Source of the DNA: Eximiradius proteiniborus
GTDB taxonomy: Bacteria; Bacteroidota; Ignavibacteria; Kapaibacteriales; UBA2268
Assembly (NCBI GenBank): GCA_937936035.1
Contig: CALGXJ010000055.1
Coordinates: 1 to 36,110 of the forward strand
DNA: 36,110 nucleotides
Direction of reading: 5' to 3'
In this document: positions 31,877-35,408 of the stretch, in pieces
How the letters are laid out: every line of letters begins with the position of its first letter
Position numbering within the stretch: the stretch's first letter is position 1
Position numbers and translations under genes: made by a program
The notes under the pieces: generated by a model
Told to the model about the DNA's origin: nothing
Databases searched by the model: none
The model's input: only the letters and a program-made list of their open reading frames with translations

Positions 31877-32770
31877 TTATCTTCTGGCTTCGTTGTAAAT
31901 GTGTGCATTAGTTGGATCTAAATATATTAAATTGTCAAAAACTTTTCCGTCGGGATAGCCTTTGAAAAGTGCGGCGAATTCCCGCGATTTTGTATCAAAA
32001 AACATTTGCAGAAAAGCGCTCGGTCCGACCATTCGCTTTTCCTTGAAATCAGCCATTTTAGATATGGTTTGAGCAATATTTTCAAGTGCTTTTTGCTTGT
32101 TTTTTGCAAGCAGGTCCATTCCGTCCAAATATAATTCTGTTATTAATTTACGGAAATTATGATAACGCGGGTCAGTAAGTTCACTTATTAAAGTGTATTT
32201 GGTAAGTTCACCCGGTGCCGCGTGTGTTCCCCAACCTTCAACTCCCTGATTTGCTCCAAGCAACAACACTTGCTTTGCACGGTCGAATGCAACGTTCCCA
32301 TCAAGTTCGCCATAGCTGTCTAAGTCCATCCCGATTATTAGCATCATATAAAAATCAATAATGCTTGTTATTTCATCAAATCTATTGATATTGAAGGTTA
32401 AATTTGCTCCCTGCGAATACGAAAATGCCCATTTGTTTTCGAGCAATCTCACAGCAACGGAAGTTGCTTCGGCATCGTCCAGCAGTGGGCGACGGGACAC
32501 AATATACATCCGTGCTGAAAATCTGTTTCTATTGCCACCCGATAATACAATGTTTATATCCACCGGAATGCGTTCGCCTTCCCATTCAATATTTACGAAC
32601 TGTTGATTGTTAATATAATTCTGCAAGTCATTTTCGAGAGATGAAACAAATATTCGTTTATCCGGATCTATTTGCTCCATATTGACGCTTACTGTTGCTC
32701 TTATCTCCTGCGAAATCAGATTGTTAAATAAAAAAAATGGCAGTATAAAAGTTAAAAGTAATTTTTTCAT
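31877..32770 (-). CDS. PorD/DUF4835 family exported protein
   Basis: A 297-residue protein with a signal peptide (LLLTFILPFFLFNNLIS, then QEI). The mature sequence fits the DUF4835 family, called PorD in type IX secretion: an N-terminal beta-rich part (ATVSVNMEQIDPDKRIFVSS and later RFSARMYIVSRRPLLD), the segment ITSIIDFYMMLIIGMDLDSY, and a helical C terminus with YHNFRKLITELYLDGMDLLA and FDNLIYLDPTNAHIYNEARR. In T9SS-bearing Bacteroidota this protein is associated with the secretion machinery. The T9SS cargo at 6427 in the same window is consistent. It heads a short operon with ruvB. Confidence 0.85.
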   Translation of the reverse strand: MKKLLLTFILPFFLFNNLISQEIRATVSVNMEQIDPDKRIFVSSLENDLQNYINNQQFVNIEWEGERIPVDINIVLSGGNRNRFSARMYIVSRRPLLDDAEATSVAVRLLENKWAFSYSQGANLTFNINRFDEITSIIDFYMMLIIGMDLDSYGELDGNVAFDRAKQVLLLGANQGVEGWGTHAAPGELTKYTLISELTDPRYHNFRKLITELYLDGMDLLAKNKQKALENIAQTISKMADFKEKRMVGPSAFLQMFFDTKSREFAALFKGYPDGKVFDNLIYLDPTNAHIYNEARR

Positions 32771-33014: not shown

Positions 33015-33386
33015 ATGTTAAATGTAAATCAGTTAATTAAGATTTTTATCATTTCATTGCAAAATCAGGGTAAGCAACATTTCTTCGCTTATTCCCCGGA
33101 AATTTCTTTAATTGCACCAATCAGCCTGAACAAAGAAAACGATGATTTTGACGAAGACGAAGATGACGATGACGACGACGAAGACGACCAAGATTACTAC
33201 GAAGATAATGAATACGAAGGTGATGAGTTTGACTTTGGCGATGATGATGACGATTTTGATGATGAAGAGTTCGAATTTGACGACGAAGAATTCGATTTCG
33301 ACGACGAAGATTTAGATTTCGACGAAGACGACCTCGATTTCGACGAAGAAGACGATTTGTTCGAGGACGACGAAGATTTAGCATAA
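33015..33386 (+). CDS. Small protein with extremely acidic heptad-repeat tail
   Basis: A 123-residue protein of unknown function. The first 40 residues are ordinary (MLNVNQLIKIFIISLQNQGK, then HFFAYSPEISLIAPISL) and could form a small folded domain; there is no clear signal peptide. Residues 41-123 are almost all Asp/Glu with regularly placed Phe/Leu. Residues 82-116 form five seven-residue units of type DDEEFDF or DEDDLDF, encoded by 21-bp units (33258-33362). It is followed closely by the helix-hairpin-helix/barrel gene on the same strand and diverges from the PorD-like gene. The acidic tail could bind cations or basic partners. An R/H-rich antisense frame over the repeats is a shadow. Confidence 0.7.
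   Translation: MLNVNQLIKIFIISLQNQGKQHFFAYSPEISLIAPISLNKENDDFDEDEDDDDDDEDDQDYYEDNEYEGDEFDFGDDDDDFDDEEFEFDDEEFDFDDEDLDFDEDDLDFDEEDDLFEDDEDLA
33258..33362 (+). repeat. 21-bp imperfect tandem repeats within acidic gene
   Basis: Five in-frame 21-base units made mainly of GAC, GAT and GAA codons with TTC, TTT or TTA/CTC/TTG at fixed places. The protein heptad is conserved better than the DNA, so selection on the protein rather than recent slippage seems to keep the pattern. Confidence 0.7.
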
Positions 33387-33452
33387 GTTTCTGTTACATA
33401 TATTTGCTTTTTGGTTGAAATGGAGAACTTTAAGGTTCTTCATTTCTCGTTT

Positions 33453-35408
33453 ATGAGCAAAAAATGCTTTATATTGAATGTCCTCTTACTATTTTCAAAT
33501 TGTCTGTATTCTCAGGATATAGATGATTTCGAATTAGAAAGATACCTTGTTCAGTTTTCCTCAGAAGAAGAACTGACCAACGTTATAGAAACTCTCGAAT
33601 ATTATTTCGCAAATCCTGTCAAACTCTACAAAGCCCGCCCGGATGCCCTGACTGTTCTGCCAAATATTAATTATTATGTTTCTTCTGCAATAATTGAACG
33701 GTTCAACAATAATCCGGGTTCGTCCTATTTGTCGCTTTTCGATGGTTTAGAGCTTTCCGACATCCAGCAAAAAATAATCATTAAAGCAACCGATAGGGAC
33801 ACAATTCAGCAGCGTCGGTTTTCTGCCGACTACAGAGTTCGCAGCATCGAGCGTCTCGAAACTGTCCGTGGATTGAAAGAGAAAAAATACCTTGGAGATA
33901 AATCCGACATCTATCAGAGATTTCAGGCAAATTACTCTCAATTCCAAATTCAGGCTATCGGAAATAAAAATTTAGGTGAGATTTATCTTTATGATTTTTT
34001 TTCTGTTGGTTCAAAATATCAAACTGATAATTTAAAAATATTAGTTGGGGATTTCGCTGCTGCTTTCGGTTGCGGGAATACGCTCTGGCAAACATATTCT
34101 CTTGGCAAAGGTGGCGATGCGGTTCGCTCGGCTACACCCTATCGAAACTCGGTAAATCTCAACACTTCATCAATGAGAACAAATTTTATGCGCGGCGGCG
34201 CCATCGAATACAAATTCAATCACCTCTGGCACACCTTTACTCTGACCGCTTTTGTCTCGAATGCTAAACGACCAGCAAATGTTGATACAGCAAAAAAAAT
34301 TGCTACTTCTATCTACACTGCAAATTATTTCCATACCAGAACAGAAATCAACAAAAAAGATGCTCTTGGTGAAACATCCGTAGCCGTTAATTTTGCATAT
34401 AATTACAAAAAAATCACACTTGGTGCTACCTGTTTCTCGTTAAAATACGATTATCCACTAAAAAGCTCTTCCAGCCGTGCCTTCGAAGGCTCGAGCTCAA
34501 CTATTATTTCAGTATATTCGCTTTATTCTGCTCCAAAAATTAGCTTGGGCGGTGAGTTTTCTCTCTATTCAGAAGAGTTTCCAGCGGTGAAACTATATTC
34601 TTTATTCAAACTCAATAATGTTGATTTTGCTGTTCATTACAGAAACTACCATTCTAATTACAGAAGCTTTTGGGGATATAACTTTGGCGAAAGCTCTATC
34701 ACTGCCAACGAAGAAGGGCTTTATACAGCCTTTTCTGCAAAAATAAGCAAAAATCTTAGAGCGGAAGCATACTTGGATTTATATCGCACTCATTGTCGCA
34801 CCTATTCCGTCGAAAAGCCAATCAAAGGCTTTGACTATTCAATAAAACATCTATATGATAATAAATTGCTCGGTTCGTTCTTTCTATTGATAAGAGCCGA
34901 AGCTAAAACTGATGGCTTCAAGCCCAAAGGAACCTCAAACCAGGTTATTTACACTCTTCGCCGTAATCAGGTTCGTTTTGAATTCGAGCGCAGAATTATA
35001 AAAAATTTTACATTCAAAACACGATTTGATGCGACTGATGTTGACTTTGAACGCAAAAAGCCCAATGAAAATGGTTATGCCTCTTATTTGCAAATAAGTT
35101 ATGATGTGCTGAAAAATCTCTCAATTACAGGCAGAGTCTCTATTTTTAATACTGATAGTTATTCATCTGCAATCTGGCATTATGAATATAGAATGCCAAC
35201 TTCTGTTTACACAAACCCGCTATATGACGAAGGCAGTCGCGTGTTGCTTCGGATTAATTATTCACCATTGAAATTCATCAAGCTGTATTTTGCTTATACG
35301 AGATTAGAAAAACCGAAACTCGAAAATCTGGGCAGTTCCTACGATTTAATCAAGGGCAACAAAGACAATCGGCTTTATATGCAAATAAACATTAGCTACG
35401 CGGAATAA
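33453..35408 (+). CDS. Exported helix-hairpin-helix / beta-barrel protein
   Basis: A 651-residue protein counted from ATG 33453, which gives a clean signal peptide (MSKKCFILNVLLLFSNCLYS, then Q). ATG 33420 and TTG 33411 are alternative starts that would add a charged extension. Residues about 15-110 hold ComEA-like helix-hairpin-helix elements: FANPVKLYKARPDALTVLPN, then IIERFNNNPGSSYLSLFDG. The remaining 500 residues are strand-rich and barrel-like, with IYLYDFFSVGSKYQTDNLKI, LVGDFAAAFGCGNTLW and an end of RLYMQINISYAE. Similar long HHH proteins occur throughout Bacteroidota, and their role, perhaps surface DNA handling, is not established. It appears to follow the acidic-protein gene in one transcript (66 bases to the chosen start). 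Confidence 0.75.
   Translation: MSKKCFILNVLLLFSNCLYSQDIDDFELERYLVQFSSEEELTNVIETLEYYFANPVKLYKARPDALTVLPNINYYVSSAIIERFNNNPGSSYLSLFDGLELSDIQQKIIIKATDRDTIQQRRFSADYRVRSIERLETVRGLKEKKYLGDKSDIYQRFQANYSQFQIQAIGNKNLGEIYLYDFFSVGSKYQTDNLKILVGDFAAAFGCGNTLWQTYSLGKGGDAVRSATPYRNSVNLNTSSMRTNFMRGGAIEYKFNHLWHTFTLTAFVSNAKRPANVDTAKKIATSIYTANYFHTRTEINKKDALGETSVAVNFAYNYKKITLGATCFSLKYDYPLKSSSSRAFEGSSSTIISVYSLYSAPKISLGGEFSLYSEEFPAVKLYSLFKLNNVDFAVHYRNYHSNYRSFWGYNFGESSITANEEGLYTAFSAKISKNLRAEAYLDLYRTHCRTYSVEKPIKGFDYSIKHLYDNKLLGSFFLLIRAEAKTDGFKPKGTSNQVIYTLRRNQVRFEFERRIIKNFTFKTRFDATDVDFERKKPNENGYASYLQISYDVLKNLSITGRVSIFNTDSYSSAIWHYEYRMPTSVYTNPLYDEGSRVLLRINYSPLKFIKLYFAYTRLEKPKLENLGSSYDLIKGNKDNRLYMQINISYAE

Follow-up and report, generated by a model that had tools for sequence, protein, structure and literature searches.

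A small hyperacidic protein with a conserved head and a predicted disordered Asp/Glu/Phe tail in Eximiradius proteiniborus

Introduction

Long acidic tails dotted with aromatic residues are well studied in eukaryotes, where they serve as DNA mimics, histone chaperones and activation domains. Further, DSS1/SEM1 is a short acidic disordered protein with interspersed hydrophobic residues. To our knowledge, few stand-alone acidic tails of the aromatic-dotted kind are known in bacteria beyond that of the RNA polymerase subunit delta. Delta of Bacillus subtilis joins a folded N-terminal domain to a disordered acidic stretch of 83 residues with a net charge of -47, which is described as mimicking DNA (PMC7749165). 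In Hfq, a disordered acidic C-terminal tail acts as a nucleic-acid mimic (PMC5606850), and the Asp/Glu repeats of the HMGB1 type are long disordered tracts that are autoinhibitory or DNA-mimicking (PMC10250230).

Here we describe a gene for a small hyperacidic protein at positions 33015..33386 (+ strand) of a 36,110-nucleotide stretch of the Eximiradius proteiniborus genome (hereafter, the window; contig 55 of a 1.69-Mb MAG that is 78% complete). The nearest mechanistic parallel appears to be delta (RpoE), which is also a small protein with a folded N-terminus and an acidic tail of approximately 83 residues (-47 in delta and -59 here). Unlike delta, whose N-terminus is a HARE-HTH domain of approximately 90 residues, the protein has a head predicted to be a 40-residue beta-meander. 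Pfam did not match the HARE-HTH model (PF05066) to the protein, and the model was not found in eight of the nine genomes tested (G000-G004, G014, G062 and G077, including all four of the window's genus); it was found once, in G022, and the B. subtilis and L. lactis controls were positive. We therefore rejected identity as delta, given that PF05066 was found neither in the protein nor in the four genomes of the genus.

A small beta core followed by a disordered acidic tail is also the layout of Hfq. However, the Hfq tip, of a few residues, is much shorter and much less acidic than the tail described here, no basic rim is evident in the head, three strands are predicted, and Pfam did not detect the five-strand Sm-like domain. 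The long disordered Asp/Glu tract resembles the HMGB1-type repeats, but the protein is bacterial, is Phe-rich rather than purely Asp/Glu, has no attached DNA-binding domain and shows no sequence relation to HMGB1 or DSS1. In a comparison with SSB, neither an OB-fold match nor a DDDIPF-like tip was found; the protein ends in ...EDDEDLA.

A hyperacidic protein without an evident export signal

The open reading frame (ORF) starts with ATG and is intact over 123 codons. The calculated pI of the product is approximately 2.7 and its charge at pH 7 approximately -57. The head (residues 1-40; 33015..33134) has an ordinary mixed composition. The tail (residues 41-123; 33135..33383) contains 59 Asp or Glu among 83 residues (71%) and no Lys or Arg, giving a net charge of -59, together with 18 hydrophobic residues (11 Phe, 4 Leu and 3 Tyr). 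An earlier note made on this DNA had called more than 80 residues nearly all Asp/Glu; the acidity was borne out, and the wording slightly overstated the proportion. Note that an antisense Arg-rich ORF at 33121-33384 is a by-product of the GAC/GAA codons of the tail.

No export signal was evident: the maximum 19-residue hydropathy was 0.64, and neither a signal peptide nor a membrane segment was seen by inspection. We infer that the protein is cytoplasmic. A secreted matrix protein was rejected, as there was no cleavable or 19-residue hydrophobic segment and the head was predicted to be folded. Binding to mineral, which had been suggested earlier, is therefore unlikely. A RiPP or graspetide precursor was rejected as well, given that a Thr/Ser/Lys core is absent.

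As the earlier note proposed with its cation binding, the 59 carboxylates of the tail might act as a cation buffer that loosely binds Ca2+, Mg2+ or transition metals, possibly condensing. Trigger factors of the same genus end in His/Asp-rich tails that look metal-binding, so metal handling may matter to this lineage. However, we regard this role as unlikely. Pfam detected no EF-hand, RTX or other calcium motif, and neither RTX nonapeptides (GGxGxDxUx) nor an EF-hand loop was present in the sequence. The 83-residue tail contains neither His nor Cys. Further, the conserved Phe and Leu residues would serve no need in a buffer, and a folded head domain is conserved.

Predicted structure of the head and tail

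AlphaFold2, run on a six-sequence alignment, predicted the head as a three-strand beta-meander (strands at residues 11-17, 20-27 and 32-36), with a pLDDT of approximately 90 over residues 11-36 and values of 92, 92 and 85 over residues 11-40. A Foldseek search with the head returned 369 matches, all with E > 1, and thus no significant fold match. Residues 41-123 had a pLDDT of 51-58 and no secondary structure, and the tail is accordingly predicted to be intrinsically disordered, a call that rests on the six-sequence alignment and on a method to which binding-induced folding is invisible.

The earlier note had proposed a structured acidic ribbon or an amphipathic helix. The hydrophobic residues are spaced at i, i+2, i+7 and i+9, which places them on opposing faces of a helix. 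The helical hydrophobic moment of the tail (100 degrees) was 0.10, compared with a mean of 0.46 (SD 0.23) for shuffled tails; at 160 degrees it was 1.02. The low helical moment, the low pLDDT of the tail and the loss of the heptad in two of three genera (below) argue against both proposed structures, and we rejected them.

A seven-residue repeat confined to one genus

Five seven-residue units occupy residues 82-116 of the tail (33258..33362) and are specific to the window's genus. Four are exact (DDEEFEF, DDEEFDF, DDEDLDF and DEDDLDF) and the fifth is shifted (DEEDDLF). Tandem Repeats Finder detected a 21-bp period with 82% matches at 33251-33352. The regular placement of Phe and Leu reported earlier was present and exceeded chance: 11 lag-7 hydrophobic pairs were observed in the tail and 3.4 were expected from tail shuffling, and none of 5000 shuffled tails reached 11. 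Between units, the protein pattern was kept while the codons varied, again as had been described.

The lag-7 periodicity was significant within the window's genus only (p < 0.0005). The register was lost in the orthologues of two other genera, G004 (p = 0.39) and G014 (p = 0.57), and the G004 tail possesses a longer repeat of its own (lag 13, p = 0.002). With the exact heptad missing from two of the three genera, a strict period cannot be what is functionally conserved.

Two further features of the tails were seen. A segment, EFDFGDD, is unchanged between G004 and the window's genus and is a possible docking motif. The acidic tail of G002 is broken by a 100-N assembly gap (L004 1634-1730), probably arising from the repeat.

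Orthologues and selection

Orthologues were found in six genomes of three genera (G000, G001, G002, G003, G004 and G014). Identity to the window protein was 92% for G001, 77% for G003 and 66% over the head for G002; G004 represents a second genus, and G014, a third, was found with a profile of the head (E = 9.6e-23). In all six, the head motif hKxFhhSLxxxxKxxxFAxxPxxxxxxPI is followed by an acidic tail and lies upstream of a predicted beta-barrel gene. The residues F11, S14, K20, F24-A25, P28 and P35-I36 of the head are invariant. The head profile (A3) yielded no other convincing member among 123 genomes of the order, in which two marginal matches (E ~0.004) both contained in-frame stops, and no further match among 396 genomes of the phylum. 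Neither half of the protein was meaningfully matched in Pfam, NCBIfam, PHROGs or PDB. Matches to Falstatin and kiwellin (E 0.17-1) were dismissed as matches of composition, and weak tail matches in G012, G014, G032 and G054 as unrelated ORFs. A phage or plasmid origin was also rejected, as no homologue of the head was present in the viral contigs and plasmids searched and PHROGs gave no match. By these searches, the libraries covered contain no earlier record of the orthologue family, which is small.

For three within-genus pairs, codon counting gave dN/dS values of 0.064, 0.117 and 0.084 in the tail and 0.32, 0.13 and 0.13 in the head. Between the G000 and G001 tails there were nine synonymous and five nonsynonymous changes, at 31 synonymous and 215 nonsynonymous sites. 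All indels among the orthologues were in frame, and no frameshift was found in six genomes. The net charge of the tail was -59, -61, -59, -59 and -52 in five orthologues, in which the number of hydrophobic residues was 15-19. The ORF is a real gene kept by natural selection, and the charge of the tail and its content of hydrophobic "stickers" are conserved, but the register is not.

These values bear on whether replication slippage of GAC/GAA codons merely added a neutral expansion to a short gene. The 21-bp units are still approximately 82% alike, indicating that part of the tail arose by recent duplication, and G004 has a repeat of its own. However, the low dN/dS of the tail (0.06-0.12) and the in-frame indels indicate selection rather than slippage, and the charge and hydrophobic count stayed constant while the units differed between genera. 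Slippage without selection is contradicted by these data, and we consider a neutral origin of the tail very improbable. The view of the earlier note that the tail is not random low complexity is thus upheld: homologues were inspected for loss of the tail or frameshifts within it, and the tail was kept.

The locus

Immediately downstream of the acidic gene is a gene for an exported, predicted outer-membrane beta-barrel protein (33453..35408, + strand). Its ORF is listed from a TTG at 33411; on inspection, the ATG at 33453, which is followed by a signal-like sequence, is the likelier start. At every orthologous locus in the three genera, the same barrel gene closely follows the acidic gene. In the window's genus, a divergent gene upstream of the acidic gene (31877-32770) encodes the type IX secretion system (T9SS) protein PorD (DUF4835; NCBIfam NF052317, E = 2e-59).

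Between the acidic stop codon and the barrel gene there is a terminator- or attenuator-like hairpin with a 13-bp stem and a 4-nt loop (33417..33446, + strand; folding z -3.7). A hairpin was found in five of five loci folded, with z from -2.5 to -4.0 at the corresponding position in G002, G003, G004 and G014. The simplest reading is a terminator or a partial attenuator, and the acidic gene is therefore probably expressed largely on its own.

The arrangement raises the possibility that the protein is a partner of the barrel protein or of PorD, for example by regulating an envelope protein from the cytoplasm or by serving as its assembly chaperone. Adjacency to the barrel gene in three of three orthologue genera and the divergent PorD gene are consistent with this possibility. 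However, the barrel gene was found in 48 of 54 genomes of the family, and the acidic gene lies upstream of it only in genera g1, g2 and g12 (30 loci inspected). Further, the upstream neighbours differ in G004, a terminator-like hairpin separates the acidic and barrel genes, and the hyperacidic protein has no export signal. We consider such a partnership distinctly unlikely.

ORFs of the same design in other lineages

A search for the pattern [DE]3-Phe-[DE]3 matched 59 of 123 genomes of the order, compared with 14 for a reversed-pattern control; the search undercounts Phe-poor tails. Small ORFs of the same design were found in many genera (loci L112-L115, L117, L118, L149-L155, L157-L161, L171, L180, L182, L185, L186 and L290-L296). 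Their heads are variable (17-73 residues) and their tails of 60-84 residues consist of 66-78% Asp/Glu, with a net charge of -40 to -63 and at most one Lys or Arg. Within the loci read, rather than by a formal census, there was usually one stand-alone ORF per genome. No Pfam or NCBIfam model covered eight representatives, and no description of the recurring design was found in the open-access literature.

Each lineage carries its ORF at its own fixed address; neighbouring genes were named by reading translations rather than by a family scan. In genera g5, g20 and g21, the ORF is beside ppdK, often convergent with rplU-rpmA, and in g9 it is one gene away. In most of g18 and in g15, it adjoins a sirtuin gene (sir2). 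In family f7, its place is within the trp operon, with trpC on one side and trpF on the other, and in f9 it adjoins homoserine/methionine genes. A further family of the class, f17, has the ORF adjoining a GGAGFIGSA epimerase gene, and mostly next to metH, in six of seven genomes; in the seventh it is near a contig end. A motif near YEEDFDF is conserved across genera in five of six aligned f17 tails, and is possibly a docking motif.

The ppdK-linked ORFs have short heads, with which the head of the window protein shares a K-x-Y-F-x-P likeness. The likeness is suggestive only, and we do not claim homology, because the ppdK-type protein gave no confident predicted structure. Homology between the same-design groups is unproven from sequence; the design may have originated repeatedly or may have been relocated.

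Nascent chains rich in Asp/Glu abort bacterial translation, and high Mg2+ suppresses this effect (PMC9718836). The acidic gene might thus be a leader ORF, in which Mg2+-dependent intrinsic ribosome destabilisation, through the hairpin, couples translation of the acid-rich stretch to expression of the barrel gene. The hairpin in all five loci folded and the f7 ORF inside the trp operon fit such a role. However, an ordinary terminator explains the hairpin equally, and the acidic run begins past residue 40, where abortion is reportedly weaker. Further, in several genera no gene of the unit follows the same-design ORF, which is convergent with rpmA, leaving nothing downstream to regulate, and purifying selection on the head sequence and Phe positions is not required by the model. 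A leader function is, in our judgment, improbable.

A proposed two-part polyanion

Our preferred reading, to which we assign a probability of roughly 0.4, is that the product is a cytoplasmic two-part protein in which the head is an anchor and the disordered polyanionic tail is a nucleic-acid mimic or binder of basic surfaces, by analogy with the acidic region of delta. The head (residues 1-40), as a small beta-meander, would probably self-associate or dock on a partner. In the tail (residues 41-123), the surrounding Asp and Glu would keep the Phe/Leu stickers exposed. The tail would most likely serve both as a nucleic-acid mimic and as a chaperone-like binder of basic surfaces, and candidate partners, as with the acidic region of Bacillus delta, might be RNA polymerase, ribosomal proteins or nucleoid proteins. 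The same-design ORFs elsewhere (net -40 to -63) suggest that selection acts on bulk polyanionic and aromatic character and not on sequence. We also count in favour of this reading that trigger factor, a ribosome-associated chaperone, carries a similar fused tail in two genera (below). Against it, the head is homologous neither to the HARE-HTH domain of delta nor to any known fold, and the neighbouring genes (the barrel gene and porD here; ppdK, sir2, trp and metH elsewhere) give no pointer to transcription or translation.

Taken more broadly, the ORFs might represent an undescribed bacterial class of small cytoplasmic Asp/Glu/Phe polyanions, usually encoded by one gene per genome in most lineages of the order and in a second family of the class. 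In such a class, the head and the address would be replaced while charge and stickers stay constant, making it a functional counterpart of the delta and DSS1 type and a family defined by physics instead of sequence. We hold this view tentatively and consider it doubtful. The recurrence of the design across lineages is a more interesting lead than the small orthologue family. A clade in which charge and sticker content are under selection, but head, register and locus differ, offers a natural test of which sequence features are important in acidic disordered regions, and the 123-residue protein and its counterparts are concrete targets for asking what such tails bind in bacteria.

The C-termini of trigger factors were read at L096, L101, L103, L165, L174, L217 and L218. 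In g19 and g25, which belong to the same family as the window, trigger factor ends in an Asp/Glu/Phe tail (62-73% Asp/Glu over the last 60 residues) that resembles the tail described here, but is fused to trigger factor. No stand-alone Asp/Glu/Phe ORF was detected in these two genera. We rejected the idea that the fused tail and the stand-alone ORF are complementary, because two genera with the tail are too few. In many genera, including that of the window, trigger factor ends in a His/Asp-rich (HDHDH) tail.
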